From Ichthyosporea sp. XGB-2017a (Eukaryota; Opisthokonta; Ichthyosporea), in NCBI GenBank assembly GCA_002811675.1, contig PDIM01010260.1, positions 175,211-215,915 of the forward strand: a stretch of 40,705 nucleotides of DNA, read 5' to 3'. The notes under the pieces are model-generated. The model ran no database searches. It was not told where the DNA came from and worked only from the letters and a program-made list of their open reading frames with translations. How positions within the stretch are numbered: the stretch's first letter is position 1; every line of letters starts with the position of its first letter. The position numbers were made by a program, and so were the translations under genes. Shown here piece by piece: positions 3,590 through 37,952 of this stretch.

Positions 3590-3741
3590 CTTTTAAGGTA
3601 CCGAGAGACATTTGCAAAGAGGTCAAGAACTTCTTCAATATCCTTTTGGAATTTGGCTTCCTCATGCTTTCTTATTAGTTCTTTCGCTTTCTTAGCTTGA
3701 GTTTTATATGCGCTCTTCTTAGAGGAGTCTTCTGGGCTGGT

Positions 3742-4911
3742 AGTATATTCGTCAAAGGAATCATACCAGAAATATGGCAACGAGCAATTATTGTTCCCAT
3801 ATACAAGAGTGGATCAGCTTCCGATACAAATAATTATCGAGGTATCTCCTTAATAAGCTCGGGCCTAAAGCTCATATCCTCTGTGGTGGCAAGAAGACTC
3901 CTCACACACTTCAAAAGAGGGCTCTCTAAATACCAAGCTGGCTTTAGACTGGGAGAGGAATGCGCAGCACAATGCACAGCTCTTTGGGAAACAGTAGCTT
4001 TGAGAAAGAAGCAAGGAAAGAAAACGTATATAGGCTTTATAGATTTTAAAAAAGCCTTTGATAAGGTCCCTCACTCAGCAATCAACCACGTATTGAAGAG
4101 CAAAGGTATACACGGCCCATGTCTCAAATATATTGAAAATTTGTATAACTCTTCCTTCGTCGGAGTCCTCGGTGCTGAAGCAGAAGACTTTTTCAAACAA
4201 ATGGAAGGTGTCAGACAAGGTTGCCCTATGTCCCCGATCATTTTCAACCTCTATATAGACACTCTCTTGAATGAACATGACTCAGTAGGGTTTAATGATA
4301 TTGACACATCTATCCCAGGCTTCCAACTTGCAGATGACTCAGCCATTGTAACGTCAACCCAAGAATCCCTTCAAACAGGCTTTGACAAAGTTAATGATTG
4401 GTGCAGCATCTGGGGGATGTCCATGAATCCAAAGGAATGTTGCACAATGGTTGTAGGTGGATCAGAACATGATGTTAACTTACCAATCCCAAACGCCCAT
4501 ACCCCAGTACATGTTAATGGGGAGGATGTACCCATAGTAGATGAGTACAAGTACCTCGGTGTTAATTTCCATTACACTCTAGACTGGGGTGAAATCATCT
4601 CACTCAATGTTACTAGAGGAAAAGACACCATGAAACTCATCACCTATGCCCTGAAGCAGAAATGCCTTCCTACATACCTAAAACTCTCTGCTAATCTCGA
4701 GACTGACATACGGAGCGGAATTGTTTGGCATAGCCCCCGAAAAATACCTTTTACCCCTCATCACCATAGCCGAAGAAGCTCAACCAGTGTCTTTGCATTC
4801 GAGAACAATAGAGAAAAGCAGTCTTCGCAAACAACCGTATTCCTTCTTAGAACTCCTTGCACTGGGAAATTTGAAGCAAGCACGAAGCCACGTTCCACAC
4901 GCAGGCTCTGA
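3742..4911 (+). mobile_element. Non-LTR retrotransposon reverse transcriptase remnant
   Basis: The translated frame carries a typical LINE reverse transcriptase: an NNYRGISL block near the start, the motif-A aspartate in FIDFKKAFDKVPH (about 4035-4073), GVRQGCPMSPIIFNLY (about 4207-4254), the catalytic pair in LADDSA (4327-4344), and the thumb-side EYKYLGV (about 4540-4560). The 5' part (endonuclease, ORF1) is missing and the reading starts abruptly next to a foldback repeat. After SGIVW at about 4725 the frame loses family resemblance while another frame (4721-4984) stays open, suggesting an indel. It is therefore a 5'-truncated, decayed copy that cannot move by itself. The clade is not resolved by eye. 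The frame has no convincing ATG; the upstream start is a TTG. Confidence 0.85.
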
Positions 4912-6228: not shown

Positions 6229-7145
6229 AGCACTTATAGTTTTTCGAGTACTACGGAACGTAAGAAAAGAAAGTATAGCCTCGAAACATTGCAAAAAAGG
6301 CGTCTATACAATCAAAGCTATCAGGCCAAGACATCATATCGTTTATACGACTACAAGCGAAAGGCACGCGCAGGCAAGAAATCGTTCACTCTCACTGACG
6401 AGCAAGCAATCACGCTCTTCACATCAATGGGATTGACCATGTGGACAACTCGGCTTCTTACTCGTCAGACAATTGTGTTCCTTGTTGCTCCCCATGCAAC
6501 CGAGTGAAAGGGTCAAAACGTCTAGACGTGTTCTTGCGAATTCTTGACCATTACCATATCGTTTACAAACCATGGTCCACACCCAAACCAACAACCAATG
6601 TCGCAGCGTTGGAAGCGGAGAAGGATGTACACCAAAACGGACATTGTTCATCATCATATGTGATACCTGTGATTCCAGATCATGACTATATACAGACAAC
6701 ATGCACTGCACAAAGTCCGCAGTCAAAGAGGACATGGAAACTACAACGATGTCGGTACAATCAGAAACGATACTACAACACGACAAAGGGACGGTTGTCA
6801 CACTGCAAACGCAACGCTCGCAGTGCTCAACGTGCTTTCACACTCACTGACGAACAGGCCATCACGCTCTTCACCTCCCCATGCCACTACTGCGGGTACT
6901 CGGCTCTCCCTGAATGCTGTAATGGTATCGTTCGTGTAGACAACTCGGGTCCATACTCGCCAGACAACAGTGTATCTTGTTGTTCTATTTATGCCAAAGG
7001 GGCTAAACGTGTCGAAGAGTTTATGGGTATTTTGAAATATTATCGAGTTTCTTATGCATCGTATAATGGATCCTGTAAATTTCAAACACCTAAGGAAGAT
7101 GATATCAACAACAATGAGAGGCCCATCAATGACAAAGACACATAG
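6229..7145 (+). pseudogene. Tandem HNH-type zinc endonuclease domains, broken
   Basis: Two tandem copies of one module are visible: a basic stretch rich in K, R and Y, then FTLTDEQAITLFTS, then an HNH-type zinc core (CHYCG, G-I-x-x-V-D-N-S, Y-S-x-D-N, C-C-S-x-C-N, K-G-x-K-R). This pattern belongs to the HNH-like nucleases common in phages, large protist viruses and mobile elements. Copy 1 (6229-6600) lacks the CxxC part: compared with copy 2 about 43 bases are missing near 6428, which also shifts the frame. Copy 2 (about 6735-7145) keeps CHYCG but has V for the D of the GID motif and has lost the C-N pair through a 6-base deletion near 6985. No in-frame ATG opens copy 1. The whole locus is therefore probably inactive. 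Function, if any, would have been DNA cleavage by the parent element. Confidence 0.65.
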
Positions 7146-8312: not shown

Positions 8313-10997
8313 ATGATTGTAGCACCTCCCAATATGATGACGCCCGGTGGCGACAATGAAGGGCAAGCATCGCGATTCAGGATTAGGTCAACAGAGAGCT
8401 CCAGGAGGAAGAAGACGGAAAAATTTTCTGAACGGAGGGAGGCGATTGAGGTGCAGAAGGCGATGGATCGTAAAAAAGAGTACGAGGAGCGAGCTAGGAG
8501 ACTTAAGGAGAGGTCAGAGAAAAAGATTGCCGGCCTTTTACGAAGACAGCATCGGCCGAAAAATGAGCATGAAAATATGAAGCCTACCCCTCTTTCTGGA
8601 CCAGCTCCACATGGCGAGCATCAGAAAGGGTCTTTGGGAGGGGAAGGCGCTGTTGGTTTGGGCGGACGGAGGAAGAAGCCAGGGGCGGCAGGGCGGAAGC
8701 CGCATGGCAAAGTCGCGCTGGAGGGACGAGCAGCCGTGAAAGGGGAAGCAAACAAGAAAAAAGAGAATGTAATCCGAGAGGCTGACAGAGTTGACATTAG
8801 TGCTGAGTTAAGGTCTTCAATGGATCGACTGCAAAAAGAGATTGGGAATATTTATTTTGGGGAAGGCGGAGATGGGAAGGAGGGGAAGGAGGTGGGTGAA
8901 CAGAAGAAGGCTGGCATTCCCGGTGAAGCACATGCCCTTGCAGCAGATAGCCATTGTGCAGAAGAAGCTGAGTTATTGCATCACTGTGCAGATGAATGGG
9001 GGTCAAAAGGACCTTCCGTGGCACATCCCAAGCATCCTCCACCTCAGCAGATGGACAGCAGGCATCATTTACGAGATGACTTGCGCAAAAGAATGAAGTC
9101 GCCTTATGTGGAGTACTATCCATGGGGAAGACCTGGGGGAGGGGCACCTAATCGCACAGCCTCGGGAAGGGTCAGTGCTGTTAGGAAGAGCTGGGAAGTG
9201 GCACCTTGTGAAACTGCGTTCATAAAAACCAGTCACGATGGTTCATCGGGTGTAAAGACATATGCAATGCCCTCTGGATTTACGTACGCATCAGATAAGC
9301 CAGAGGAAAGGGATGCACAACATATGAAGCAGTTGGCGTATAAGAAAGAGTTGGATGAGCAAGTCAGGATAAAGAAAGACATGGAAAGGAAAAAGGTACA
9401 GAAGGAAAATGAAAGACTGCAGTCCCTAATGAAAAATACTCTTTACTGTCCTAGGACAAATCATTCTACAGAGTATCAGCCTCACACACATGCAGTCAAC
9501 AGCTCTCAGAACAAACCAGTACAAGCAATATATGAACCATCGTATGTGGATTACATGAGTCATACCTTACCTGGGGTAGATAGACTCAATGATCGTTACG
9601 AGATACTTCCATCAATAAGTGGTGACATGATGTCAGCTCATGCAGATGGAGGTACTGGTGCAACTGAAACACAATTGGTGACCAGAAGGTCCAAAGACAG
9701 CGTGTTAAGATCAAGGGACAATATGAGGGTCTCCAAGGACCATGGTAATATGAGGGTCTCGAACGATTGTGGACCTAAAGAAAACAGTAATAGTGGCTCC
9801 CTCGATGCCACCAAGCATAGCATAGAGGTGTCGGACGTTAGTGAGTCAGAAAGAAAGGCAAATAGGAGAATCATGTTGTATTCGACTAGTGATCAAAGGA
9901 GCGCAATGAGAAAGCAGCAAGACGACATACAGAAGGAAATTTTAAAGGCCCAGATTAAGGAGAATCAAGAGCGCAAATTGAAGCAGCAGCAGGAAGAGGC
10001 AGAATATGAACGCCGAGAAGAAGAAAGATTAAACAGGGAAAGGGAAGACATGCTTTTGAAGTATCAGCACGAGCAAGAAGTACTGATGAAGAAGAAGAAA
10101 GAAAAGAATCGTTCGCAAAACAAAGAACCTCAAAGGGAACCTACAGAAGTAGCAAACGGAGATGAAACTGAAAGGCCAAAAAGTCGACCAGTGCTCTCTT
10201 CATATTACCCAAAAGATGGTAAAATTGTTAATCCGGATGGAAGACCTCCATCGAGACCTCTGCCAACCCATGTCAATGGAGTGCAATACAGCAGGCAGTC
10301 TCCTACCCCGTCCAGGTCTAGCTCCGTAGCAGTAGCTGATCCTCATAACATCTTGGCTAAATCTAGGCCCGGCACTGCTATTGATGTATCATATCTCAAC
10401 GAAACCAGTAAGAGCCTCAATCGAGGAACGCCCCCCAGAACTCCTGATAGAATTAAAAACGGTAACTTTTCCCAAACAATTCCTCGCATGGGTGCGTCAG
10501 ATGAAGATCCATATGACGAAGTGCGCGCAAACCAATCGGTCAAAAGGTCCCTGGCCGAAACATACAAAGGATATAGTCCAAGGGGGAATGAACGGGAAAA
10601 GGCGAAATCACGGAATGGACATAAAAATTCTCATCGACCTAATTCATCTTCGGAATACAAAGCTACTAGAAATGCAGAAGGAGTCCCCAAAGTGCTCGAA
10701 ATACCACTGGACAATGATGACCAAGGCATGTTACTTCAACAGTGCGCACTTCTCAGGGCGGTAAGTTTGAAATGTGAGATAGAAGCTTGTCTAGTAGTCT
10801 TGTAATTTAAGTTTAACTAACCTTTTTCTCGCCCTTTCTTTCTTTTCTTTCTTTCATTTTCTATTCCTTAGAATCTATTTAACAAAAAGAGACAGATAGA
10901 AATGGAACTGCACTCTGACTCTGCCAGAGCACTCGAAATTAAAACAGAAAAAGAGTTTTATCAAGCGTCTCTTGCTGCTTTAAAAGGGGAATCATAA
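8313..10997 (+). CDS. CSPP1-like: CSPP1-like centrosome/cilium coiled-coil protein
   Basis: Two exons, 8313-10760 and 10872-10997, are joined by a 111-base GT-AG intron (GTAAGT donor, TTAG acceptor, phase 0), giving 857 residues. The protein is highly charged and mostly coiled coil or disordered: a K/R/E-rich helix at residues 30-80, a Gly-rich linker at 100-140, and E/K/Q helices around 335-375 and 535-605. The motif YYPWGRPGGGAP at residues 268-279 strongly recalls the PWGxGGGGAP box of CSPP1, and the repeated pattern AYKKELDEQ plus E/K helices fits that family. CSPP1 binds microtubules at the centrosome and ciliary axoneme. The ciliary neighbours (DNAH7, IQUB, WDR34) support this call. CCDC66 or another centrosomal coiled-coil protein is the main alternative. 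The second exon restores a sensible C terminus with a TAA at 10995; without splicing the frame ends at 10805. Confidence 0.55.
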
Positions 10998-11001
10998 TAA
11001 C

Positions 11002-11007
11002 AATAAA
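11002..11007 (+). terminator. AATAAA poly(A) signal candidate
   Basis: AATAAA lies 5 bases after the TAA of the CSPP1-like gene, giving a very short 3' UTR if used. Confidence 0.4.
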
Positions 11008-12706
11008 CAATATCTACGGCCTGTTATGAAATTTTTTTAGAGGGTAATTAGTATTGTAATTAATTACAGTAGCTCAAACCTCATTCTTTCATAACGCCCC
11101 TTGCTCCAGAGCTGTGCAATTAACAGTTTAGATTCCCGGTTTATTTTTTTTTGCACAGCTATGTCTGCTTTATGTAACAATTTACCTTCCCGCAAATCCA
11201 TCTATGATCAAAGTCGTTCGTTAGTTGTACAAGAAAGCCATCCATGCATATAACATGTCAGAAGTGACGAGCCATTAAGCTGCTCGTTTTGAGAGATATA
11301 TATTCTACAGGCCTTGTTAACTGTGCTATGTAATGTAGATACAAACTGCTTGTTGAGAGTTCCACCTGAAGGTTGCAAATCAGCTGTTGCCGATAATATA
11401 ATCTTTGTTTTGACAATAAATGGATCGTGGGAGGGTCGAGGGAATGTCTGGGGATCACGGGAATCACGGGATGGTTGAGCTTTGGGTGCTGAGCTCTGAT
11501 TCGCTGTCGTGTTTTATAGCCGGGAACAAGCAGTTACATTGGGCACTTGCAGGACGTCGCTTGATCATGTTGCAGACGTAGGGCGTCTAGTTGTTCGTCG
11601 ATCTGTGCATCATGTAGCTGTGCAGTACTGTAGTGACTAACTGTGACTATATCACTGGTAATTTCCCGATGACCGGCAATGCGTAAATATACTCAGTGTA
11701 CTATAACAGCTCATGGGCCTGCTCGTCTCCCCCTCCCCCGGGTCGGGCGGCGCTACTTATAAAGTTCATGTACGTTAACATGTGAAACTGCGCCAGTGAT
11801 CGACTCGGGGTCCACTCTGGAGTCTCGATCGATCAAATATCGATAGTTTACAATGGATATTTATCATCATGAATGGAATATAAGCCAAAAATCGACTCAT
11901 GCTATTACAGTACATCTGCAATATAAATTTAATAATATATGAATTAACTTTTTTCTTTCGACATGAACTCAAAAACTTATGGATCGCTTCATACAAACAC
12001 AAACAAAACAGCAGCTTATAGGTTAGCTGTTAGCTATCATGTAGCTACGTGAATATAGTCTCGGAAAAGAATTGGGCGGTTACTTTTATTATAATTATCT
12101 TGCAACTATAGCTAAGCCGCACCTTTGCCTGAAGTCGATGCTGATCACTGGTTATTGTTATTATCATATTGTATTATAACTTATAATGTAATTTGTAATT
12201 ATTAAAACGTCGGAAGGAGAAGAAGACCAGAGTGAAGGAGATTTTGTGTCTGATTTCTGTTTGTTTGTGTATGAAAAGAGAAAGGAAGAGTAGGAAGGAA
12301 TAGAAGAAGAAGAAGAAGAAGAAGAAGAAGAAGAAGAAGAAGAAGAAAAGCGGGGGCGTACTTTGATTTGGTTAAATTATTTGCATTTTTTTTTTCTTTG
12401 ATTTGAAGTGTAGAAAAGATTTGAACTTTTTTATTTTGTTTTTTGTCAATCTTTATATCTGAGCCTTTCCCGTGAAACTTAAGGGAAGAAAAACAAACGT
12501 CTATAGCACACTTAAACGCGGTGTTACTTCTACAACCTTGTAAAACTATAATTGTTTCTGCTGAAGGGTGTGGGAAACTTAGGAGGGATTCAAGTTCAAG
12601 TGATTTGAATAGTGCATATTTTTCTCCGAAGTGAATTGTCAAACTAAATTGGAAACGTCAATAGAGTGAGAAAAAAAATCGGGAATTAACAGAGAGGTTT
12701 GTGAAT
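11008..12706. other. Intergenic, upstream of the LIM-homeobox gene
   Basis: No gene is supported. I looked specifically for a further LIM-domain exon (CxxC...HxxCxxCxxC) on the + strand and saw none. The frame entering the ATG at 12707 has an in-frame TAG at 12662. The stretch contains a GAA microsatellite and may hold the regulatory DNA of the homeobox gene. Confidence 0.55.
12303..12348 (+). repeat. (GAA)n microsatellite, about 15 units
   Basis: An uninterrupted run of GAA triplets about 360 bases before the LIM-homeobox start codon. Read on the minus strand it makes a spurious poly-Leu frame. Confidence 0.95.
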
Positions 12707-14498
12707 ATGGGAGGACCCAACTGTGGACTGTGTGGAGGAACGGTCAGCGTGCCTTCTATGAATGCTGCAGATAAGGTGAGTGGAATAGAGTCAAGTGGAA
12801 TCATGTAAAGCGGTGGGTGTTGAGTTACTAACTTTGGCTTGTCTCTGCTTTGTTTTTAATTTATTGAATATGATTTAGTTTTACCATCCGGAATGCTTTA
12901 AATGTTTTAAATGCAAAAAGAAAATTAATGCCGGCGAGAAGTTTGCGTTGAAGGACGACACACTTTACTGTTTGGAAGATTATACTAAGCTGTCCCGTGA
13001 GAGTGGGGGCAGTGGGGGCAGTGATGTGGAGCAGCATAAAGAAAACACTGCAGTGCAGAACGTGAAGGATCAAGAAGAGACAAAAAGGCGAAACAGAACA
13101 ACTATTACAGAAGAGCAGCTTGAGCATATGAAGGCCTGCTTCGAGACCATCCAGGTGCCCAACCAAGAGAAGAAGGAAGAACTAAGTAGACTGACAGGGT
13201 TGTCCACACGAGTAATTCAGGTATGGTTCCAGAATAGAAGGGCAAAGGAGAAAAAGAGAAATGACGGGCTAAAACAACAGGCATTCAGTCCTTCGCCAAT
13301 GCCTGCAAATGCTTCATCTCCACTTGCTCGTTCTGCTGTGGCTTCCGGCTCCAATGGTAGCAATAGTAGACTCGTACAGAGGACAAATTCGAATCCACAA
13401 ATAGGTTCGTCTCCTCTTCTCACGGGCGCAAGCAGTCCATTAGCAAGCCCTAGCCCAGGAAAGCCCACACTAGATGCGAAGCGCAACAGTGGTGTTAATC
13501 CTATTCAGCAATTTGAACACATGTCGATAAATTCTGCGGGAAATCGTAACTCGGCGGGGGCAGCTTTGCAGCAACAGTTTTTGGCACAACAGGCGAATTT
13601 ACAGCAACTGGGAGGTATCCAGCAAGGGGTTCAGCCGAGTCAGATGATGGGTATGAAAATGGGAGCACATCCTGCGCAGCCTATGAGTGATATGCAACAC
13701 ATGTTTAACGGGCTGTCGGGGTCTACCGGTACAGGGCTTCATCGGGCATACTCTGCGCCAGACATGAATATGACGCAGATGCAGGGAAGTTTATTGCAAC
13801 AATTACATATGCAGCAGGCGAATAATGCTGGTCTGGGAAGCAACAATAATAGCAATGCCAACCAACAACAGCAAGCGAACCTGGCAGCAGCAGCAGCGTC
13901 ATCAGTGAACGCAAATGGTGGCGGCATTGAAATGGGGTCACTTGATTTGGACTTGGGGGATCTCTTTATTGAGAAGGATCCTCTTGATGAATTCCTTACA
14001 GGCATTAACTTTAATGAAAGTGAAATGGTAACGGAAAGTAGCGGGGTCGCTCCATCACTTCCAAAGGGAAACGAAGCGAACAATGTTCCACTGAACCCAG
14101 CAGTGCAGCGGCTTGCGGGAGGGGGAAACACTCTTCGAAGGGCAAACTCTCAGCCAAATCTTCAGCGGGTGCCTGTTGGATCTCGACCACAGAGTCCAAG
14201 CCCACTGGAGTCACCACGTTCTCCGGGAGGTGTACCTATGAATGCAGCAATGAGAATGCAAAACAAAGCTGTGCGTAAAAGATCGTCAGCTCCTTATGCA
14301 GTTGTGAATAGACATGGGAGTATGGACGATCTTATGAGACAGGGTCAAGTGGGGAATATCAAAACACCGGGGGCATATGGCGTATCTTCACCAAATAACT
14401 TTGCTGGTGGAAACAATGGAAATAATGGGAACTTGTTTGAATTTGGTGGACTTGGAGAAGATCCTTTGTTCGCAACAGATATCAATGGTTTGTCTTAA
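12707..14498 (+). CDS. LIM-homeodomain transcription factor with one LIM domain
   Basis: Exon 1 is 12707-12775 and exon 2 is 12879-14498, joined by a 103-base phase-0 intron (GTGAGT...TTTAG), giving 562 residues. Residues 6-57 form one complete LIM zinc finger (C6, C9, H26, C29, C32, C35, C54, D57), most like the second LIM of LIM-HD proteins. Residues 92-151 form a homeodomain with RNRTTIT, TGLSTRVIQVWFQNRRAKEK, closest by eye to the Lhx1/5 and Lhx3/4 groups. LIM-HD proteins normally have two LIM domains; here the ATG precedes only one and an in-frame TAG stands at 12662. The roughly 410-residue tail is disordered, Q/N/S/P-rich, and carries repeated phosphosite-like motifs (S194, S315, S447, S493, S504) plus an acidic-hydrophobic patch (residues 377-400) that could activate transcription. 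The protein should act in the nucleus as a developmental DNA-binding regulator, with the LIM domain contacting an LDB-type cofactor. Confidence 0.9.
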
Positions 14499-15269: not shown

Positions 15270-18200
15270 TTAATCATCTAATTGGCAAAGAAGAGCTACA
15301 CCACGACATACCCAGTGTTTCTGGGGTTGTTTAGATGGTAATTCTGCTTGAATAACGAAGTTTGTAGAGTGCCCCGATGTCGACAACACGCCTCGTCGTG
15401 CACTCGTCTTGTATACTGGGCAGATATATACGTTTGAAGACACTTTTTCAGTTTGCCTGACAGGCTTTAACCACATAGGAGGTAGTGTTGCTGAAAGGAC
15501 TTTAGGGAACTGCTCATCAAGAGAGTGCTCTTCAATATTCCATCTGGCTCCATCAACAAACAAACCCCGAACAAATACGCCGTCAGGGGCAGGTGAAGTT
15601 AAGTCATCTTCTGGTTTAGTTACGTGGAACTCAAAACATAAAAGATCAATGGGTATCGAGTGCTTTCTAGAGAAGTTCTGTAAAGCCCCAGTCAAAAAGG
15701 ATTGAGTAAAGTAGAACCCTGAAATCCAAAAGACAGGTGGCGCCTTCAGATCAATCCAATCCTGAAGAAACTTCAATCGAAGAAGCAGGTCAATGACATA
15801 TCCACCTAGAGGCTTTAATGATGGATACGATTTACCTTGCCATAATGCTGGTTGCTTGTTCTTCAATAAGCTCTGCCCAACATCTTCCAAGTCAGCAGAC
15901 ATGACAACCAGTCCTTTAATTGCCTTCTGTAAATCTATAAGGCTTCGCCGAACGACAGAAGTCAGATTATTAAACCTTGCCAATTCTTGAACAAGAACCG
16001 TATTCATACTTTCTTCATACATAACGGGATACAGTTCCCCAACCGCTTCGATGTCAAAATCATCAGGAAGCTTCTTTAGGATATCTTGACTGATCTCTGC
16101 AACCACATCATCGCTTTTCTTGCCTCCGCCTCCTCCGGCTTGTGCTTCTGTCAAAAGAATAGACTCAAATAGGGTCTTTGTCTCCGCAATATCACGTGTA
16201 ATATCTACATTATCATGCATGCCAAAAATTTCGGGTGATTGATTTGCAGGAAGAGACTTAATATACTCGACATAGCTCTCATGGTCACCTTTAGCTGGAG
16301 CGTAGTATGTACCACTCGGGGAAAGTTTATACTTTGGATCTTCTACAATATCAGCACAGTAAAAGGTAGACAGCATGTTCATAAGGCATCTTCTATCCCA
16401 ATCATCTGTTACTCGTCCGCCGTAGTTACAATGACCTGTCAAATAAAGAATGGCATCGTAAGGTACCTCGTCATAAGTGTTAATGAATGTCTGCAATTGG
16501 CGCATGCTAATGCGCATGTCTGACTCATTAAATTCATAGGGGATATTGAATCCTAGTGGTCCAAACTTTCTTCGCTCTTGAACTACCGCATGAAAAAAGC
16601 ACAATCCAAAAACAAGTTTTTCCCAAATTGGTGCTTTCTCGCCACAGCCTTCCCAAAACTCTGTGTCATTAAGGGGGTCGTTGGTAAATGACCCTAGAAT
16701 ATTTGCACGTAGACCTTTGGGTGGCTCATTAGTCATCTTTACACCATTTTGTAAAATAGCCACCGGAAAATTGGGAGATGGATAGCTAGTAAGCCAAAGA
16801 CGAAAGTCGGGCTGCATCTCATCTGCCACAAATTGCTCGCATATTTTTTCTAATGCAGGCATCCAGCTGACAGCCAAATGGCAATTTTGCAAAACAACCC
16901 AAGCACCCTCCTTTTTTGCATTTTCAATCAGCTTTGCTGCTATAGGACCTTGGCCTTGACCGAGTGAAATTGTGTTAAAGCGCTGTCCTGTGAAACCTTT
17001 GCTTTCGGCATATTTAATTAACCCTGCCATAGGGTCGGCTCCAGGAGATAATATAAAAATAAGAGGCGTTGCCGGATTGGAGTCCATGTAGCTCTTAGCG
17101 AGGTCAAATGGCGGAGGCTGAACAAATCGGCCTCCCAGTTTGTCTTCTACGTATATTTGTACCGCTGGGATAACTTTGTCTGGTCTAATTGCTCTTAGAA
17201 CTAGAATCTTCTGAAAATCGGTCAGTGTAGATTCAAATGGGTCAGGGAAACGTTCTTTCTCTGGAGTCTTACTCTCATATATTTTCTTGAAAACATTTTG
17301 GCATTCGGCGAAGGAAGCTGAAAATCCTTTAAAGGCGGGTAAGGACTCTAGTCGACATATTTCATCCCATGACCTACTGGTTAGCCAACTCTCAGAAGGG
17401 TTTTCTTTGTCATTCTCCAAGCCGACACCACCAGTTAGAAACTGTTGATATTCTTTCTCATCCATTTCATCCTTCGACTTCAGAATATGACTACAGAGAA
17501 GAAAACTAAAGAGCAGTTTATCCTTTTCAAACAAAGATCTACATATGTTACAGTAAAGACTGTACGAAAAATGATCACTGAGATACCGAAGACGCTTCTC
17601 TAATATCTTCGACTTGTTACTGTCTGCAATGGAACTTATGTACAGGTTAATAAACCATGTCAAGGAGTACTGATACATCGGCTCGATATTAGCGAGGTCA
17701 CTGATTGTAAAGAAAAGAGTCGACGAGTGCTCTGCTATGGGTGTATATCCCTTGCGGGTATTGTCAATTTTCTTTTCAGTCTCTTCAGCAATTTTTTGCT
17801 TTTCTGAAATTTCGTCTGACAAGACTTTGGAGGAAGAGAGAATTTGAATTGCCGATTCATCTTCTAGAATATTTCCTTCTCCCGAACTTAGCGTTTCAAG
17901 AATTTTGTCCTCAATTTCTTGTAGTGTTTTCTTGTTCTGGGCACTTTGTAAAATTAGCTGATTTTTTTCCTCTTCAAGCTCTGGTTTTTCTTTCGCCACC
18001 ACAATACCCAATAATTGGTCTGAAAGACCATCTCTTGTGATCATAAAGTTAAGAAGAGCGACCTTGGTAGAAACCTCTGGTAAGTAATGAGGGTTTCGAA
18101 GTTTTGTGGTCATGTAAAATTTAAAGTTCTTTGAAAATTCAATTGTAGAATCGCCCAACCTTATGCACATAGTGCCTCCCTGTTTGAAAATCTGTTTCAA

Positions 18201-21200
18201 CAGTAAAGGTTCTAGAACAGGGTCAATTTCCTCTTCGATATTCTCAAGCAAACAGGGATATCCAAACTGAATGCAATTCTCTAATGAGCGAACATAATCA
18301 CCATCAGAAAGTTTAATGACACATAGATTGTTGTCTTTTTCGAAGTTTTTTATCCATTTGTTAGCTTGCCCTTGTGGGTCAATCATCAAGGGCCATCTTC
18401 GTGCGTTTGCTACCACAACACCATTGTCTACAGAAAATGAGTCAGTGGGAAGCCCTGCGATATTCCATGCTCGGATTTCTACAGGTTGGCCAAGAACCTT
18501 GCTCAAAGTGAAGTCTGAGGTACAAAGGATATTTTGCCCTTGGCATTGCTTTACCCATGACTCGGTGCACTTGTTACGGTATCCTGATGTAAATGCCCCC
18601 AAATAAGCCACAGTCCCTGCTGATATGATGACGTCTCCAGTCAGATTGTTGTATACCCCTGTCAATCTTTCAGCTGCGGCAGACCATCTGTCTTTCTCTC
18701 CTCCAAGCCCTCCAATCAATTTTTCTGCTCTTTCCAGTTTTTTAGAGCAAAGATCCACTTGATATTCAAGATCATTTTTCTTGTCCACCATGTTTTTAAA
18801 GTTTGTTTGGAGCTTGTTAAGTCTGTCTTGCACCTCTTGCAGCTCGGCTCTCTTTTCGTCTAAGCGTGCCATTGTTTCTGTAAGAAGTTCATCCGCCTGT
18901 CGCAGTTGTTCTTTCTTTGGTGCCACAACTTTGGCTACCCTGTCGTAAACTTCCATAGCCCGCACCCACTTGCAAAGTCCCTCTCCTGCAGAAGACGCAT
19001 TTCTTACTTTCTCGGGAACAAACTCTGGGTTAGTCATATAGTCAGTACGTATCTTTTTCATCACAGCCACAGGAATGTTATCTTTATCGTAGACTTTAAG
19101 GCTTTCTAAGAACTTCATATCTCCCAAAAGCTTCTTAGCTGGCCCCCAGTAGTCTATAACTTTCTCTCCCGAACCGGAAGGGTTTGGAATCTTATCCGGT
19201 TTAATTTCTTTCATGATACATATGGCTTCCATAACCAATTTAACACCAGCAGGGGGGGTTTTCATGGACTTTACCACTGTGATGTCTGCTGGTTTGAGAG
19301 TATTCAGAGCTTCCATAGCAGCTTCTAAAGCTGGCAATGCTTCGGCAAGGTCTTCTTCGCACTCGTCTTTCATTGCTTTTGCCTTGTCGGCCTGTTCGTT
19401 CGCTGAATCTTCTTCTGCTTTGACAATTTTACTGTATGCTTCAACTTCAACTGATTCCTTTTCTATTACTTTCATCATTTCCTCAGTCTCGCGAGCAGTG
19501 ACAACTAGCTGTGGCTGTAGGGCTGTCAACTCTTCTTGCATTGTCGCAACTTGACCAGCGGCAAAGTCCAATTTTTCGAGACCAATAACATATCTGTTTT
19601 TTGAAGTCATCACAATTTCACGGTTCTTAAATAAAAGATCTTTGAAAGCAGATATTAATTCCAAAAATGAAGTTGGCGTAACATAATTAAACCGTCCCAG
19701 TTTATCTTTGAATTCAAGGGAGAGTTCACGTGCGTCAATATGAAAGCACTGACAGAGTTCAATGCAAGACCGCTTCTCATCAGCATCCATTTCCACCTCG
19801 TCCAAAAACTGTGTGGCAACAACTTGCAATCCATCGGCTGGCCAAGCCTGAAACCAGTCGATTGTACAGCAATTTATAAGGGAAGGGAATTGTCTTAGCC
19901 TGTTTCTGAAAGCATCCCCAATTGGACTCATGCACAGAATGATGTGCAAATTTTCTTTCACCCTGTCAATGAACATACTGTACAAAGCAAGGGGACTCAA
20001 CTCAACATTTTTTCCCATAGTTTGTTGGGCAATGGATCGCATTCTTTCACTTATTTCCTGCTTCTCATCAATTGCAAATATATTTGGAACTTCGCCTGAG
20101 TTTAGAAGATTGTTGATGTCTTCGAGCATTGATTCGTACTTAATTTGCGTATCATTAAACAGAAACACAGTCTGATCCCCTTTTACCCCAGCTCCCTTAA
20201 GAATATTTTTAATGTCATCTTGCCATTCCACCGTAGCGTACGTTTTCGTGATTTCAGGCTGGAATAGTCTGTATCCACATAGAAAAGCAGACAGTCTCGT
20301 TAGGCTTTGTCGCCCACTCCCCCCGACTCCTACTAAGAGTGCATTTGCACCAGGAAGCTTGAGCAACCGACATATTCTGGAGATATGCTCTAAAACATAC
20401 CGAAAGATGACCAAATTCATGGGGGTCTTATAAGTCTGATTATATTCAGCAAGCCCTTCCGAAACCACTTTGTTTAGCTCTTCAATATCCAAAACCTCGT
20501 CGTATAGTTTGTTTTCTTCCGTACTAAGAATATCACAAAACATTAAATTGCTGGTATGCTTGATTGTAATATCTCCTCCCTCATTGTTATTCAGACTGGC
20601 AAACGCCGAATCAAATTCTAAATTGAAATGTGTTTTTACAAGTCCTTTCAAAAAGGCATGCAACCATTCTCTATCGCTATCTTCGATCAATCTGTCGTAA
20701 AAAACTCTATAAACTTCATGGCACCATAGCCGAATAAACTTCTTCTTATCATTCATTACAATAGGAGTCACAAGAAGTACGCCATTCACAACTCTTCCAA
20801 AATCTCTCAAGTTGAATGTGTAATGAGATTTTGCAGGGGTTGGTAAAAGGTTTTCCATGGCTGCTTTGTAAAGGTCCATGGTGGCAGATACAATCTGTTT
20901 TCCAACAATTTGAAGCTCGCCTAAGAAATCATGTTTCACGAGGTGCCAATTTACAATTTGCGAGAAAATTTTTGTCATTGTTAAATCATTGAAACTGTTG
21001 ATGGAAAGCATGTTGAAGTGTCTTGAAAATCTTTCAGTAACAAAATTTCGGCTTCCCCCAGGCGGTCCCATTGCTGTGATGAATTGGATATCTATCAATT
21101 CTATCCGAGTGGTATCTTTCTTGTCATACCAGTTAGAATGGTCCATAAACTGGCGAAGCAACTCTATCGGCGGCTGTGCACCATAAACTTCTTTTGCCGG

Positions 21201-24200
21201 CATATTTAAATCATCAACAAAAACTATGCATTTCTTTCCCATTGGAGGGCCATAAACACCTTTTCTTCGCTTGTCTAGTTTGGACATTATTATATCTTGC
21301 GCCTGACCTGCTGTAGTTTGAGCAGAAAAGTTCACGAATAAAGGGATATACTTGGATTGGTCTAGTCCATTCATGAGTTTGTTTTTGATATATACGGATT
21401 TACCAGTTCCTGTCGGACCGACAAAAAATGTAGGTTTTCCGTTTCGCACTAGTAGGTCAATAAGAAATTCAGACCGTATGGTGTCCGGTGTACTCACAAT
21501 AAGCTCTGAGAGCTTGGCATCAGTAGGGATATCCTCTGCTTTCTGAAAGTCTGTCCATCGTAACCATTTGCCCATACTCTGGTTGACAAACACATAGTCA
21601 TATATACTATCCCCGTCTGGAATTGGGTGTGTGAACTTCATTTCCTTCGCATTTTCAGCAATAAGTGCACGAACTATTTCATTAAACTTTTCCCTTCCAT
21701 CTAAGTTCAAACACCCACCAATTCCCCACACTAGCGCAAAGAAAAAGTACGCCTGTAGCCATGTCATAATATACTTTTCGTCTAAATCCTCTTGAGAGCT
21801 AAAGTCGTTAATAAATGACTCCATTATATTCATTAAGCTAGTGACTACATTTGAATTGCTAGTAGGAGACAATGTCTTACACGACGCAGCAAGCGCTCGT
21901 AGGCACGGAGGAACAAGCAATGAAAACATCTGACTTAAGAAGGTTTTGTGATTTTCACTAATGCATTCAGGAAGGGTATTGAGCCACGAGTTTACCAAAG
22001 GTTCCCATCCAAGATTTTTTGGCTCCATGTATATCATACCACAGCGACTAACAGTTGCTGGTGACGCTACTGCCAAGTCCATTACCTCGAAAATAAGATT
22101 CATTCGATTTCCAAGTTGGATAATTTCTCCACTCATTAAGCACAGCTTCCTATTGTCATCAAGCACTGTGTTCATATTTTCAATCCAGATTGCATCCACA
22201 GGACCATCAAACACAAGCCATCTTCTGTCTTGTGCGGACATTACGGCATAGTCTCTAAAGCTATTCGCCAAAACACCATCAGACCACTCGTGGGAAACAG
22301 CATCAAATTGACCATACAGTTCACCCATTGTTATAGACTTGGGATTTAAAGTTTTGGTTAGTACCTTGCTTTCACCCATTAGTCCTTTCTTGGCAACTCT
22401 ACCTAAAGCTCCAGCAAGTGTCCGAAGGCATTTGGTTTTTCCAGAAATTGGCTCTCCAACTAACATAAAGCCATGTCGAACTATCATCATCTCGTATGTT
22501 TGTAACACCTTTTCTACAAATGGGTCCACCATCTGTAAATTTAACTCTTTACATGTTTCAGCAATTGCTTCTGTGATAACCTCATAGTCCGGCTCAGGGA
22601 GAGTAACACCAGGAAATAGATCTGAAATGATCCCGCGAAAAAGGGGAATGTCATGGGACAGAAATTTGGCTAAGTTAACGTCAATGATTGAGCGAAGAAT
22701 AACAATACTTTCGTCTTCATTAGGATAAGCGAGCTTAAGATTTCCAGCTGCAGCAAGAACGGATTTCACTGCTCTCATTCCGTAATCGTAGTGGCTCTGG
22801 GAAGAAAGTTGTTCAGAACAAAGCCTGTATGTTGTCACAATTTTGACAGACATATTTCGCGCATCTACGAACCCAAACGAATATAGGACAATCTCCCCTA
22901 TCATAGCATAATCAGGCACCATCATAGCAACAGTTCGAAACAGTACTTTCAAATTGTCAGGAAGTTCGCTTCGGCCGGCATATCCTGGATTCATGGTTAT
23001 AAAAACACAACATGTTGGATCCAATGGGAGGTCTGTCCCTTCGAATAAGATACTGTTTTGTTTGGTTGCAATTCCTCTTTGAATTGTTAGCACTTGTTGG
23101 GCAACAACAGAGAGCACTTCGAGATCTATTCGGTTGAATTCATCAAAGCATGCCCATGCACCAGCTGCAGCAAGCCCTTTGAAGAATTTACCCATTGCAA
23201 TGAAATCAAGTCCATCGGAACAATTGAAAACAACACATTGTTTAGCAAGTGCTTTTGCAAGATCTTTTGTTGTTTCAGTTTTACCAGTTCCCGCTGGTCC
23301 TTCTGGCGCCCCTCCTAAGTTTAAGCTATATGCCCCAATCAGTGTACGATAACATCTATCAGTTAATGGTGTAATGACTAGACGAGCGCTGTTACCCAGA
23401 TATTCGTATCCATATGGTACGGTGGCATTAATCATTTTCACTGTCACGTTTTCGCCTTCCCAATAGTATCGAAGCTGACTCAGCCACTGAAAATCATTCT
23501 CTAGCTCGATGTTTTCGTCCACCATCATTTGGATGACATCTTTGGCATGTACATCTATTACAACCAAAGCCCCCAGGGTAAGTCGCGCCATGCTAGTTAA
23601 ATCTCCTCTAACGAGCGCGACCACCTTTTCGAGTCGACTAATCGATTCTTTATGATAATCTTTAAGTGTGCCTTCTTTAATACACTTTTGGACTTCCTGT
23701 GTCCAGAATATTTGACTGACAGCAAGCACAGCTTGTCCAGGCCACTGAAGAACCCATTCTTCCCTTGGCTTTTGAGTGAAATCTTGAAGAGATTTATGGC
23801 AAACATCACGTACACTGATTTGCATTTCTTGTTGTACCTGAAGAAGCCATTTTTCAACAGAGCCTCTTGCAGCACTTGTGGAGATAGGTGTGCACATTTT
23901 CACTTTTTCATCTTCCGCACTGATCATATCCTCAATATCCAATTTCTCATTAAACTGCAGTTTACAAATGCCTTCAAAGCACTTTTTCAAATGGGGCTGC
24001 ACTCTTAATGGGTCTTTGGTTTCTGAAAGTATTTCAAGCATCTCATCATTTGACAAGAAGAAAAACCTGGGGAAGTACAGGCGCTTGCGTTCTAAGTAAT
24101 TGTTCAGCCCTTTGTTGATTTTGTCCAGCATAGCATTGCTCTCTGTTAGCTTCTCCAGAATATCTGGCATGTCTGTTGCATCCAAGACCATTGGGTTCTT

Positions 24201-27200
24201 TCTTGTATAGTCCATAATCATTTTCCATATTCCGTCTACAGTTTTGAACATCTTTCCTTCCTCCGGCATCTGCTGCATGATGTCTTCAGAGCTAAATATA
24301 GGCTCCAAGTATAGCCATTGAATTTGCACTTTCAACCATTGGTCAATTGTTTCCTGCAGTCTTACAAGCCGTTCTTCCCATTGCTTAATTGATTCTTCAA
24401 AAGGTTTACAAAACGGAGACCCTCGCATTGTTTGCGTTTTAACGATATGGTCATCTAAAATCTGTTGAATATCATCGATTGAGGACAGAATGCATGTGCC
24501 ACTGTCTCTATAAGCCACCAGAACAAATTCTGTGGGCTCCCATTCAGCTTTCATTTTTTCCATCCCCTTTTCAAGAGAGAATTCCCGTAGAGCCGCATCA
24601 GCAATGCTCTCCAAAGCCTCCATGTGGGGACCAAGTTCATACTGAATCATCTTTCTGAGGGTAGTGCTAGAATCTGGTGTAATATCCTGGCCAGTTAGCT
24701 CTGACATATTCGTCCAATGTCTCTCCCTCAGACCCGGATTACATACCACAGCAAGAAGAGGAATGTGGACACGAAACTCTTTTATCTGAATCTTAATAAG
24801 TTCGGCAACCTTTCTTGGCTCCGGAAGCTTCTCCAAAGATTTGGCAAGTTTTACTATCTCTCTCCAAAACTCATCCACCTCCTTGTCAACATCCTCTGCA
24901 TTAAGTCCCATAAAGCCAGCATCCATCCATTTTTTATAGTCTCTGCTCCATTTTGTTGCCAAGGTGTATAATTTCTGATATGGTTCGATAGCCTGTGCCA
25001 ACTCCATAAGTTTATCACTTTCTGTTGCTTCCCAACCAAACACGGCCTCTTCCTTATTGATGACTTCTATGTATTCTTCCAAGTCTGAAAGTTCCTTCTG
25101 GATTCCAAGAACAAGTTTGACATAATGTGGCATCTCATCCAAATCACCGTATTCTTTAAACTCCTCTACTTGAGCTTCCATTTTCTCGATCCTAGAAAAC
25201 ACAGTGTCAATCTTGGCTCTCAACTCTGATTGACCATGTTCCTTTGCCTTGACAAGAAGTATTTCACTTTCTTCTAGTACAGGTCCAATTTTCTGTGGCC
25301 AAAGAAATAGTTCTGCATTGATCGCAAACTCGGCTTCATTAAACAAATGTGCCTTCAGTAAATAAGATACACGCTCTTTGGATTCTTCAATTTCCCGGTC
25401 AAGGGACTCAAGATCCTCTGACACCGTTTCCCTCGCATATCGAATGAGTTCTGTCATCTCATCAATGCTTTGTGGTTCTTTTAAGAGCCTTTCAGATATA
25501 CTTTTGAATGAACTACATATATTTTGGTTGTGGGCGTAGCAATCATCAGCCACTCTCTTTATAAGCTTCTGTGAAAGCTGCTTTGCGGTGTCAATTAGTT
25601 CTCTCTTAATGTCCGCACACGACAGAGATATCATTGGGAATTCGGCCAAATCGTTTTCATCGGATATTTCGTCGACTAGATTATCATAGCGAGCAATTTC
25701 ATCTTGATACTCAGCAAATGTATGATCTTCCCCGAAGAATTTTTCAACTTCTTTTTCAGATTCGCCCGTAAAAAGCTTTGAGTACTTCACATACAGCTTT
25801 GCATGTGCCACTGGAGCTTCGAATTTCTGCTGTAGCACTTTCTTTATCCGGGTCCTGAGGCCTTCAACCATATTTGGTTCTATGGAAACCACCAAGTACT
25901 TGTTGCTATTCAACTCACCGCCGTCTTCATCGTTAAGAAACCCATAGCCTTCCATTTCATTGGCGTACCTAACCTTTTCTGGAGATTTCAGGATCGGAAC
26001 ACTCTGACAACACCCCAGCATATGAGATAAGCCCCGCATTACTGTTTTCTCCACCGTTTCATAGTCTGGAAGATACGTAAACTCCCCCTCATTTAATTTC
26101 AATTGCATGTTGAAAATAGGAAGTGAAGATTCATCTTCTTTGTTTTCGAAAAGTTCAGCAAATGCATTCAGGGAACGAATAAGTAATGCCCTCAAGCATG
26201 TAACAACAATTTGGTTGAGAGATCTATAAAACCCATTTGCTTGATACTTTTCTATTCCCTGTGGTAGACTGTTTTCTGGAAAATGACTAAGCAACATTGG
26301 GTACCATGTACCCATGAGTTTATCTTCGTGAAAGTCACATTCAACAACCAGATTAGAAAAGAAAGAAGACACATCACAAGGCCCCACGCTTGCATTAAGT
26401 TTGCTCGCTGAAACAAGAACCGAGTCTTGGAATATTTCGAATGTTTCTAGTGCTTGTTGTATTTCTCTTCTAGCACAAAACAGAGTTTTGCCAATAATTT
26501 CCCTATTTGTTTTGAACTCATTTTTCCACGGACTAGAAAAATCTCTGCACGTCTCGTCATCCTCAGCTTTTGTGACGTCCTTTAAAACCGCATCAATTTG
26601 CGATGAACGAACACTACCCTCGTATTCGGAACATATTTCACTTCGCAGCTTTTGAATAAGGAGTCCAAATGAGCTAGAATTGAATTTTGAGGGAATCAAA
26701 GTCATAATATTATCTAAAGACTCCTGATCCAAAGGTTGTACACAGTTTTGGGAGACACACTCCTTCATGAACATACGATATAATTCCTCTTTGCGGGCAG
26801 GACTCTTCTCAAAAAGCACCGGGGGAGGTGTTTCCGGTTGCTCCGATTTCAAGAGACCATGTACGAAGATGCTCCTACTAAGGGCCTTTTTGGCAAGAAG
26901 TAAGTTTGTCGTGTCGTCAAAAGTTGGACGTTGTGTTGAAGACTGTCGCACGTCGTAGAATTCTGAGGAGGTCAAACTGTCAGTTCGGGACTTTAGCCCA
27001 GAAGGCTCAGCATAAGTTCTATTTAAGGGAGGGAGTAGCTTGTTGTGGGGCATTTTGAGCAGTGAATGCCGCACATTTTCAGTTCTACTGACCGCAGCTA
27101 AGTAGCCACTGCTTCTTCTTCTAGGAGGAACCCCTCGATGTATAATATTCGGAAAATCTTTGTCGTGTAAGGAATTTGGATTAAATTCTTTTTTGGATCT

Positions 27201-27359: not shown

Positions 27360-27882
27360 AATCAAACACTCCCCTCTACTATAGTGGTCACAAGCCCCAG
27401 TATTACCTTGCCTTCTGCTTATATCTTTGATTGCAAAATCAATTCTATATTGTATATATGATTATAGATTTAGCCCGAATGATGGTTTTATACTTTTTCA
27501 ATCTTGTATACGTATATGTTTGTCAACGATCTCTAAGTGACAAGAAAGGAAGCAACTTTTTTCAACCTGGGGCCACAGAATAGGTCAAGTAAAGTTTATC
27601 GTCAATGTTCTCAAGCGTAGCTTACTCTTTCTCTGCCCAGTTGTCAATTCCCTTCTCTAAATAATGCCAGCAATTAGGTCCATGTGCCAGCTTTTGCCTT
27701 TTAGCGACACAGAAGGCCCCATATATATATTTAGCTTGTGCAGTCTATTCGAGGATGATAATACAAATAACAAGAACATATATAAGTTTTGAAGGAACCG
27801 CTCTTCAATGGTTCCTAGGCCTAGCCCCAATAATTAACAAATTAGATGAACCTATAGCTTTGGGTTAGCACTACCCACGGTC

Positions 27883-28064: not shown

Positions 28065-28725
28065 AAATGCGGTCCCCCAATTCCCTGTTAGTGCCTTTGC
28101 ATGCCAGAATTTTTGGATCACAAATAGACAAATAAGGTAAGAAAGCCACTATGTAATATTTTTTGGGGTCCGAGCGGCACTCAAATGCTGGGAAATACGA
28201 ATATATATTATACTATTTAACTTTGTATTGTGAAATTTATTTTCTGTTTATCGTGTACTGCACCCACTGGGTAGTAATCGAGGAATAGTAAATGCTCATA
28301 CAAAGACATACATTGGCAATGGGCTAGACACCCCCTTCACAAGTGATTGCCCAATGAAAAGAAAGATATAATTTGAAGAAAAGCCATTTGCAACCCCATC
28401 GTTAATTGTCTCTTAAACCCTTAACTAAAAACAGGTAACTCATAGCAATGCATTCAGGGCTCATTAATGATACAAATAGCTTTACATACATACGCCAGTA
28501 TACTTATTAGCCACGTAGAAGGTGGACAGGAAATTAAGGTGAAATTCAACAGCCTTATAATGTTCAGGTATTATGACAAATGAAAATCACAGTTCGGAGT
28601 GGTGGGAAATAGGTTTTAAACTTGTTCTGGTAGTAAAAGGGAGATCACTTACAAATTGAAGATTTTTGTACGTGAAAGATCATTTAGATAGTCAATCTTT
28701 GTTCATTTTCAAATTTTTGAGCCTA

Positions 28726-33682: not shown

Positions 33683-36600
33683 TTACTTCAAGGGGCCTTC
33701 CTCGTATTGGGTAAGGTCAACGGTGAGGCAGCCACTGCAGTCTTTGTTTTGATCGCGATAAACTCCGACCAAAGATTCGGCCTTTTCAAAGAAAGTATCC
33801 TTCAATGAAATAACGATGCACTGAAAGTCTTTTCTTCCGGAGCATAATCTTATGTAATTAGATACTTTGTTCACATTGGCGTTGTCGAGGGCAGCATCAA
33901 TTTCGTCCATGACAAAGAATGGGGCAGGCTGATAACTATGAATTGCAAATAGCAAAGCAAGGGCTGCGACAGTTTTCTCTCCACCAGAGAGCTGATCCAT
34001 GTCTCGAAAGCGCTTCATGGGAGGCATTGCATTGTATTTTACACCATGAAGGTAAGGCTCCTATTGATAAATAACAACGGGTCAAGATAGTTACTCTTGC
34101 AAAATAATCGAGTCAAACGCAATACAAAGTGCCAGTTAATAACCTACCTCACTGTTCTCCAGGCTTAAATAAGCAGTTCCCCCGAGGGGTTGAAGGGGGT
34201 TCTTAGTCAACTCTTTGTATACTTGATCAATTCTAGCCGAAATGTGGGTGAAGGCAGCATTAAAAAGCTCGTAGCGACGCGCTTTAATTTTGTTAAACAG
34301 GTCAGTTGCACCTTTTGCATTCTGCCTGGCGTGTTCAAATTCATCCTCACTGGCCTTCAATTTGTTCTTCACATCTTCCAGCTTGTCATTGGCTTTCATA
34401 TTCGGTGATATTTTTTCAATTTCGCTATTTATACTTTTAACCTCTTCCACAAATTCCTCCAAGATCCTTTCAACATCGTCCTTTGACTTAATCTCCCTTA
34501 ACTTTCGAGGCAAAGAGTCATAATTAGGTTCTATAGTATCCTCTGGCGGAAAAGTTTGAGAATTTGCCGCCTCATCCACATCCATCGCATCTTCCTCCCC
34601 TGAAGGTCGAGAAGCGTCTTCTTCATTACTAAAACCAACACCCTCTTCAACATCATCGAGTGAACCTCTCGCGAAGGAAATCCTGATGTCCTCAAGTTTG
34701 CACACTTTCAACTGCTCATGCTTTTTTTGTCGAATATTGATTAATGCTGTTATTTTGGCATCTTTCAATTTCTCAAGGTTAAGTTTTTCTTTTAATTTCG
34801 CATTTCGCAACTTTTTAATCTCCTGTATCTCAACCTCTTTCTCGTCGCCAGAAACTTTTAGCTCGTTCTTTTGTTTGCGCAGCGATGACAGTCGTTCTTC
34901 ATTGTCTTCGATAACCTTGATGTACGCTTTTTCCTCAGCTGTGAGGGTTTCCAGGGCATCTTTGTCTGCCGCAATACTAGCTTTCAGCTTTTTCACAGGA
35001 CCTTCTGTATTTCTGGACCTTTCATACTCAAGCTGATTTTTGAGCCGAGACTGTTGATTTGCGAGCTCAAGCCTCCTTTTAGCAATATCTTGACTTTTCT
35101 TTAAATTTTTAGACTCAAATTCTGCAATATTGTCAACATTTATCTTTGAGCAAAACTGGTCAAAAATATTTCTTTCCAAAACATCCATACGAGATTGCAC
35201 TTTTAGAATCGAAGCATCAAAGGACTTTTCTGATTTTGTAAATTTGGCCAAAGCCGGTTCAATTTTTTCCATCTCCTTAGTAGTAGACGCTATCTCATTT
35301 TCATTCTTCTCAAATTTTTCTATGGTCAATTTCAAATCCACATTTGCATACTTTAAGCGGTTTTCCAGCCCAGATATTTGGGATTGAAGTTGCTGTTCAT
35401 CACCATCTTTCTTCTTTTTCTTAGAAAGTTCATTCAAATCTTTCAAAAAATTTTCTCTATCACTTTTCAATTTTTGCACTTTCTTTTCGTCCCATTTACT
35501 GTTTTTTGATTGAATATCATTAAGGCCACCGGTTATGATACCACTCTTTCTGATAACAGTTCCATCTAGAGTTACGGCTTTAACTCTTTCATTACCAGAA
35601 AAGCATAATTTTCTTGCAATATCAAGATTGTCGCAAACAATAGTATCACCACATGCATATAATATAGCACGGCTAATACTTTGCTCAAACTGCAAAAGAT
35701 CTATTGCAAGCTTACTATCGTGTCCAAGGTGACGAAGACGCTCGTTGGCTTGCTTTGCTTCAATTGATTCTAAAGGAATAAAAGTAGCTGTACCGGCATG
35801 TTGCTCTTTCATATACCTGATACATTCCATTCCAGTTTTCGCATTATCAACAACAATGGCATCTATATTCTTGCCCAAAGCAACAGATATTGCGACTTGG
35901 TACTTCTTAGGATTACTTATCTTACACAGATCATGAAGCTTTCCGTGTACACCAGGAAATAATCGTTTCAAATTTGCAAGGCAGTCATTCATTTTTGCAT
36001 CCCTTTCATTTTCCATCCTATCTGCTTTCGCTTCGCGCAATTGGGACTGACACATCTCAAGTTTCTGAGTAATATTCCTGTGGCGTTCGGCGGCTTCTTT
36101 TACAGTCTTGCTTAAAACAACCAATTCATTTTTAAGTTTGTTCACTGTTTGGATGTTCGAATTCACATATACTTCCAATTTTTCTTTCCTTTGTTCAAGC
36201 TGTTTTCCGCTCTCAATCAGATGCTCCTTTCTCTCTGTCAATTCATCCTTTTTTCCATTCAATCGTTCAATTTCAGCTTTACTTGTAGTCTGTTCTCTCT
36301 TAATTTTTTCAATTTCTTTTCTCATGTTAACAGTTTTACGAGTGGCTTCCTCCCTCAAAGCATTGTACTCCTCCAAGAGATCTTCCTGCAGGGACATATC
36401 CTCCTCTTGTTCCTCACTCTGCTTCAAAATATAAGCTTCATAGTCCTTTGCCACATTAACAATTTCTTCTAGCTCCCGCTCAAGTGCGGTTATTTCTTCA
36501 GAATGATTCGCATGGGTAGCCTCTGCCTTTTTAAAATTTTTTTTAGACTGCTCCAGTCGACTTCGCGCGTGCTTGATCTGCTCCTGCGTTTTGATACACT

Positions 36601-37489: not shown

Positions 37490-37952
37490 CTTCTGAGATC
37501 AGCTGCACAGCACGGGATTTAACTGTAATTCAGATTGGACCAAAACACAAAGGTCCCTTGGTCAACTTTAAGCACCACAAACAAAGGGACTAGAATTAGA
37601 AAATAAATTCAGATGAGAAGAACGAAGACAAGCTGTTGAACACGCACAATACAACCACAAGTCAACCCAAAAAATGTCTCGAGTCAACAAATCAAACAAA
37701 ATACAATAACTCAGTTATTCTCAATCCTTCGCCAATACCAGAGTTCTAGGTGTACGGTAAATCAGCTTTTCAGTTAACTTCCAGACAACAGTCTGCAGCA
37801 CTCGCTCTATGCAGGAAGACTCGAGAGTGCACTCCTATGCCATGGCAGTTGCGGCCACAACACAGCATCCCATCGACACAAAAAAAGGAAGGGTCAGGGT
37901 TATTTCTGCATGTTTCCCGCCAAATCATATTTTGCATCGGGACTTGGGCCCC

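Follow-up and report, generated by a model that had tools for sequence, protein, structure and literature searches.

Kinase and 14-3-3-type serine motifs in the long tail of a LIM-homeodomain protein from the ichthyosporean Chromosphaera perkinsii

Introduction

Two groups of transcriptional regulators offer the closest described precedents for the protein reported here. The class IIa histone deacetylases (HDAC4, HDAC5, HDAC7 and HDAC9) carry several LXRXXSXXXL sites, which serve as 14-3-3 sites as well (PMC6890249), and the core site of HDAC4 is RKTASEP (PMC7841527). The CRTCs carry AMPK-family sites and are substrates of SIK and MARK kinases; a proline at +2 is common in them, and it is found in 6 of the 7 sites given in PMC6890249. 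Both groups are controlled by sequestration in the cytoplasm (PMC6890249).

LIM-homeodomain (LIM-HD) proteins have been studied from another side. Bona fide homologues with one or two LIM domains were described in Chromosphaera, Corallochytrium, Ichthyophonus, Amoebidium and Capsaspora (Grau-Bove et al. 2017, PMC5560861). Members with one LIM domain are counted as LIM-HD in that set, and these unicellular genes were not confidently placed in animal subfamilies (PMC5560861). The single gene described here bears on what LIM-HD genes were used for before animals; it lies in a window of 40,705 nucleotides (the whole stretch of ichthyosporean DNA that was analysed).

Results

Based on translation and splice signals, the LIM-HD gene consists of two exons on the + strand and encodes a product of 562 aa. 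Exon 1 (12707-12775, +) encodes residues 1-23 and is followed by a GT donor at 12776; exon 2 (12879-14498, +) follows an AG acceptor ending at 12878 and encodes residues 24-562 and the stop codon. Both exons are further supported by the annotated EukProt protein Nk52_evm60s152, which is 100% identical to the gene model over 562 aa. The Nk52_evm prefix denotes Chromosphaera perkinsii, an ichthyosporean (PMC6981761). LIM-HD genes are already known in this species, and the one studied here is presumably the Chromosphaera LIM-HD gene of PMC5560861.

A (GAA)n tract (12303-12348) precedes the start codon by about 360 bases, and the gene adjoins a dynein heavy chain of 4,063 residues in one uninterrupted ORF (15270-27461, −). 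Ordinary neighbours are an IQUB-like protein (28660-31446, +), an SMC-family protein in two ORFs (34136-37498 and 33683-34060, −) and a scramblase (39518-39997, +). On the other side are an ORF that encodes a reverse transcriptase domain and is probably a retroelement fragment (3679-4911, +), and an ORF of 248 residues (6399-7145, +) that has no match in Pfam and holds two Cys-rich blocks similar to each other (YSxDNxVxCCS...KGxKR).

Pfam places a single LIM domain (PF00412, E 3e-13; residues 6-60; 12722-12989, +), split by the intron at 12776-12878, N-terminal to a homeodomain (PF00046, E 1.7e-19; residues 93-149; 13086-13256, +). This is the order of a LIM-HD protein, with one LIM domain in place of a tandem pair. 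In the alignment with the orthologue described below, the LIM domain pairs with the second one of that protein (residues 70-122). PDB matches, judged by chain position, likewise fall on the second LIM domains of other proteins. A missed upstream exon carrying the first LIM domain was considered. Three simple LIM half-patterns gave no match on either strand of 10000-12900, although a domain split by an intron could escape such a scan; since no first LIM domain was seen upstream, LIM1 may have been lost in the C. perkinsii lineage.

The best named matches holding both a LIM domain and a homeodomain are Lhx3, Lhx1 and Lhx5 proteins, which points to a LIM-class homeodomain on the strength of sequence matches. 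Two results run counter to this assignment: the second-best match to residues 1-154 is a multi-homeodomain zinc-finger protein (P0038), and the top PDB matches are chains of the double-homeobox protein DUX4, followed by Lhx4 and Isl1. The other strong homeodomain of the assembly (G000:C175:174454-177621) belongs to a different protein, with a long GGPPHQ repeat run and no LIM domain visible by eye in its 645-residue frame.

Beyond the homeodomain stretches a tail of 410 aa rich in G, S, N, A and Q (residues 153-562; 13266-14495, +). In the AlphaFold model, which rests on 9 sequences only, the blocks for residues 101-150, in the homeodomain region, have a pLDDT of 94-97; secondary structure ends by residue 158, and the blocks from residue 161 onward have mean values of 36-49. 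Because of these low values and the lack of secondary structure, the tail is most likely disordered.

The initial annotation had singled out five serines of this tail, within an interval (13371-14333) that corresponds to codons L188-L508, and the translation places all five exactly where they were claimed. S194 (VQRTNSNPQI; 13389-13391, +), S315 (LHRAYSAPDM; 13752-13754, +) and S447 (LRRANSQPNL; 14148-14150, +) combine a hydrophobic residue (φ) at -5, R at -3, P at +2 and φ at +4, and S447 also has R at -4. S504 (VNRHGSMDDL; 14319-14321, +) has φ at -5, R at -3 and φ at +4. It forms the second half of a doublet, the first half of which is S493 (KRSSAP; 14286-14288, +), with K at -3 and P at +2. 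Four of the five sites thus fit the AMPK-family consensus when -5 and +4 may each be any hydrophobic residue; LRRANSQPNL alone fits LXRXXSXXXL with leucine at both ends. The claim that three of them are mode-1 14-3-3 sites stands for the general form, RxxSxP being present at S194, S315 and S447, but not for the strict form with S, F, Y or W at -2 (R-[SFYW]-x-S/T-x-P), which none of the five sites matches.

These sites exceed chance. In 100,000 composition-preserving shuffles of the 410-aa tail, a comparison set beforehand, the observed four φ-x-R-x-x-S/T-x-x-x-φ sites (0.12 expected) and three φ-x-R-x-x-S-x-P-x-φ sites (0.008 expected) were never reached, and the three R-x-x-S/T-x-P sites (0.18 expected) were reached in 65. 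Ten other ORFs of the window (8,446 aa) contain three φRxxSxxxφ matches, five RxxSxP matches and one match to the combined pattern.

An orthologue was sought with residues 1-154 (LIM domain and homeodomain) as the query, which makes the choice independent of the tail. Among 38 matches from 304 scored candidates, only P0039 (EukProt Opistho-1, 642 aa), apart from the query itself, could be assigned to a unicellular organism; its identity is 40% over 99% of the query region. The name Opistho-1 denotes the clone of Pigoraptor vietnamica (PMC7147346). P0039 combines two LIM domains and one homeodomain with a tail that is also 410 residues long. Among the matches to our LIM and homeodomain queries (7,996 candidates scored, a capped number, and 304), none was named as a protein of Corallochytrium, Ichthyophonus, Amoebidium or Capsaspora.

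Pigoraptor is a filasterean, and the tail of its protein carries sites at S369 (VRRSQSEPSL), S538 (LRRVKSAPLF), S573 (KRRSNP), S584 (LKRNESLD) and S607 (LRRSRSHEFL), together with one RxxTxP site (RAPTSP). The RSQSEP sequence fits the strict mode-1 form R-[SFYW]-x-S-x-P. The three φRxxSxxxφ sites (0.28 expected) were reached in 175 of 60,000 shuffles of this tail and the two φxRxxSxPxφ sites (0.028 expected) in 20 of 60,000. Sites of the form [RK]xx[ST]xP number four in each of the two proteins, one of those in P0039 being on T334; the C. perkinsii tail that holds its four is predicted to be disordered. The earlier reading had been staked on orthologous tails, and the one available from a unicellular holozoan holds R-3/P+2 motifs above the shuffle level.

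Whether the motifs stay fixed while the rest of the tail drifts has a divided answer. Most of the tail has drifted, and MAFFT pairs S447 with S538 (LRRVKSAPLF) and S504 with S584, the latter lacking a hydrophobic residue at +4; however, S194, S315 and S493 stand opposite T, E and N, and S493 meets a P0039 serine only after the alignment is shifted by one residue. Identity in the S447, S493 and S504 windows is 11/28 vs 90/316 in the rest of the tail, a modest difference. BLASTP runs its LIM-homeodomain alignment on into the tail, covering the first, S/P-rich part and stopping at residue 240. That first part also gives the best ungapped 18-residue window between the two tails, with a score of 38 vs a 95th percentile of 38.1 in 300 shuffles, and the S447 window ranks second with 35.

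The S493-S504 doublet finds its counterpart in S573-S584, and both read K-R-x-S-x-P-x5-R-x-x-S-x-D. Its spacing is 11 residues in both proteins, at 0.83 of the C. perkinsii tail and 0.86 of the P0039 tail. The pattern, [KR]xxSxP-x5-[RK]xxS, was defined post hoc from these two sequences and is present in none of the 72 other proteins retrieved. Shuffles of the P0039 tail contained it anywhere in 1,219 of 150,000 cases, within 5% of the observed place in 124 of 150,000, and together with a φxRxxSxPxφ site in 97 of 150,000.

The sites therefore recur in the Pigoraptor orthologue in kind, in number and partly in position. As only two orthologous sequences stand behind this comparison, the sites could have been gained independently, and the whole series might be a by-product of a low-complexity tail containing Ser, Pro and Arg. 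The failure of the tail windows to align above shuffles would fit this explanation, as would the tail-only query, whose one match at E up to 1 was the protein itself, a weak negative because only the 7,991 candidates with the most shared words were scored. Peptides from the S447 region and from the P0039 S369 region, queried against the PDB, each gave no match at E up to 10. Shuffles that preserve composition, however, never reached the counts of the C. perkinsii tail and seldom reached those of P0039, and the doublet keeps both its spacing and its relative place. We consider a by-product origin improbable.

The tails of other homeodomain proteins were compared in the same way. Of 74 proteins retrieved, 72 had testable tails, P0037 being set aside for its lack of a homeodomain and P0049 for its tail of 31 residues. 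The C. perkinsii protein (P0001) has four φRxxSxxxφ sites and P0039 three; a single site occurs in nine tails and no site in 61. The φxRxxSxPxφ form is confined to P0001 (three) and P0039 (two), with no case among the 70 others. The 19 other LIM-HD tails tested hold at most one φRxxSxxxφ site each. Among the 22 proteins with both a LIM domain and a homeodomain, any such site outside the homeodomain is seen only in P0001, P0039 and P0048, which has two, one of them in the tail. A single RxxS/TxP is present in 6 of the 20 other LIM and homeodomain proteins (P0002, P0004, P0005, P0006, P0010 and P0049). From these counts, the series is not a general property of the tails compared, be they from LIM-HD or other homeodomain proteins, and the multisite pattern is lacking from the other LIM-HD tails retrieved.

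Another set of long homeodomain proteins (P0020, P0021, P0024, P0051 and P0055), which may be fungal and whose relative P0030 comes from Syncephalastrum racemosum, carries R-S-[FYLQ]-S-[LV]-P. This 14-3-3 form, which resembles mode 1, occupies one aligned tail position in 5 of 6 aligned sequences. These proteins may show the same control in an older form or in one that arose independently.

The assembly was also searched for partners of the proposed switch. Kinases of the AMPK family are present: one locus (L007) encodes kinase catalytic, UBA and KA1 domains, with MARK1 as its best PDB match (E 1.1e-180), and a second AMPK-related kinase (L006) has MARK4, MARK2 and MARK3 as its best matches. 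A MARK/Par-1-type kinase is therefore encoded, and its published consensus fits the tail sites. The suggestion of an LKB1/SIK- or calcium-type kinase thus keeps its AMPK-family consensus, but the narrowing to SIK or CaMK does not follow, as the candidate found is of the MARK/Par-1 type.

It is nevertheless conceivable, though rather unlikely, that the serines are sites for other basophilic kinases (CaMK, PKD or PKA type), that is, plain marks without 14-3-3. A φ at -5 and R at -3 are common to several CAMK-group kinases, and many kinase stretches exist in the genome: a SnRK1-type query gave 149 matches, counted exon by exon, among them a doublecortin-domain kinase (L010). Such kinases are not known to require P at +2, however, and this residue, the preference of 14-3-3, is found at 4 of the 5 C. 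perkinsii sites and 3 of the 5 named serine sites of P0039.

One of several HDAC loci in the genome (L027) was considered as a class IIa enzyme. Where class IIa HDACs have His, L027 keeps GGYD, so it provides no evidence for a class IIa HDAC. A further histone deacetylase match lies in a reported ORF of 10,490 residues (L029, G000:C159:52198-53511).

The proteasome family, in which 14 genes are expected, gives 8 matches at only four places in the assembly examined. This assembly comprises 25.06 Mb vs 34.6 Mb for the published Chromosphaera genome (PMC5560861). Genes for 14-3-3, a LIM-binding protein and CRTC were not found in these 25.06 Mb; as the assembly looks incomplete by both its size and its proteasome count, we do not count these misses as absence.

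The sites are interspersed with an acidic-hydrophobic element, LDLDLGDLFI (residues 378-387; 13941-13970, +), which has a counterpart in P0039, LDAWLSDILM (residues 451-460), at relative tail places of 0.55 and 0.53, respectively. Both are spaced like a class-1a CRM1 export signal. On its own, this spacing is not significant, as it occurs in 71% of 3,000 shuffled P0039 tails. Based on its sequence, LDLDLGDLFI could be a candidate CRM1 export signal or, equally, the core of an activation domain.

Discussion

The combination of site chemistry, shuffle statistics and recurrence in Pigoraptor leads us to propose that an AMPK-family kinase and 14-3-3 have this premetazoan LIM-HD factor as a multisite client, kept from the nucleus or from DNA when phosphorylated. 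We give this reading a probability of roughly 0.55. MARK/Par-1, or another AMPK-related kinase close to it, would phosphorylate the long disordered tail at multiple serines. A 14-3-3 dimer would then dock on the phosphoserines, chiefly S447 and S315 or S194, with participation of the S493-S504 pair. The docked 14-3-3 would most likely hold the factor outside the nucleus or off DNA until dephosphorylation, as with CRTCs and class IIa HDACs. Phosphorylation, docking and the change of location are inferred by analogy with these proteins, and changed nuclear access is the likeliest outcome of such a switch.

One alternative accepts phosphorylation and 14-3-3 binding and proposes that the factor is constitutively nuclear and that 14-3-3 alters its stability, its choice of partners or the strength of its activation. 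We regard it as less probable than sequestration, at about one chance in four. It would make sense of motifs that flank a possible activation domain (the acidic-hydrophobic LDLDLGDLFI and DPLDEFL), and no export signal is proven, the class-1a spacing being common by chance; yet CRTCs and class IIa HDACs, whose motifs have this chemistry, are sequestered in the cytoplasm (PMC6890249).

If an AMPK-family kinase and 14-3-3 gated LIM-HD proteins in this way, a central regulator of animal cell fate would descend from a direct reader of cell state. One can speculate, tentatively, that ancestral LIM-HD factors were signal-gated in general: the holozoan tail would have been a MARK/SIK-14-3-3 switch coupling polarity or nutrient state to the homeodomain, and animals would have lost it when LIM-HD proteins became LIM-controlled combinatorial selectors of cell fate. 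We find this doubtful. Axenic culture of C. perkinsii has been achieved (PMC5560861).

In the open-access literature, judged chiefly from titles and abstracts, we found no LIM-HD protein under such kinase, 14-3-3 or export control, and no account of this tail or report of its multisite character, in agreement with the initial annotation, which knew of no LIM-HD protein described this way. The treatment of unicellular holozoan LIM-HD genes in PMC5560861, as far as it is represented here, concerns domains and phylogeny, and the tail is absent from it.

Compared with the metazoan LHX factors (Lhx3/4 and Lhx1/5), the C. perkinsii protein shares a LIM domain and a LIM-class homeodomain with RV(I/V)QVWFQNRRAKEK, but it has one LIM domain rather than two, and its 410-aa tail carries four to five sites of the kinase/14-3-3 type. 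If our proposal is true, a DNA-binding homeodomain protein joins the regulators under multisite kinase and 14-3-3 control. The resemblance claimed for S447 to the sites of class IIa HDACs, and likewise to those of CRTCs, is real by the published consensus (PMC6890249, PMC7841527). RKTASEP of HDAC4 resembles RRANSQP of C. perkinsii and RRSQSEP of P0039; only these short motifs are alike, however, and the C. perkinsii protein has no deacetylase domain, Pfam finding a LIM domain and a homeobox only. Similarly, SLPDL of CRTC3 resembles SAPDM at S315, but the C. perkinsii protein has no TORC domain (no TORC_N match in Pfam) and, in contrast to CRTCs, has a DNA-binding homeodomain of its own. On the most economical reading, it would work like CRTCs and class IIa HDACs while belonging to neither.
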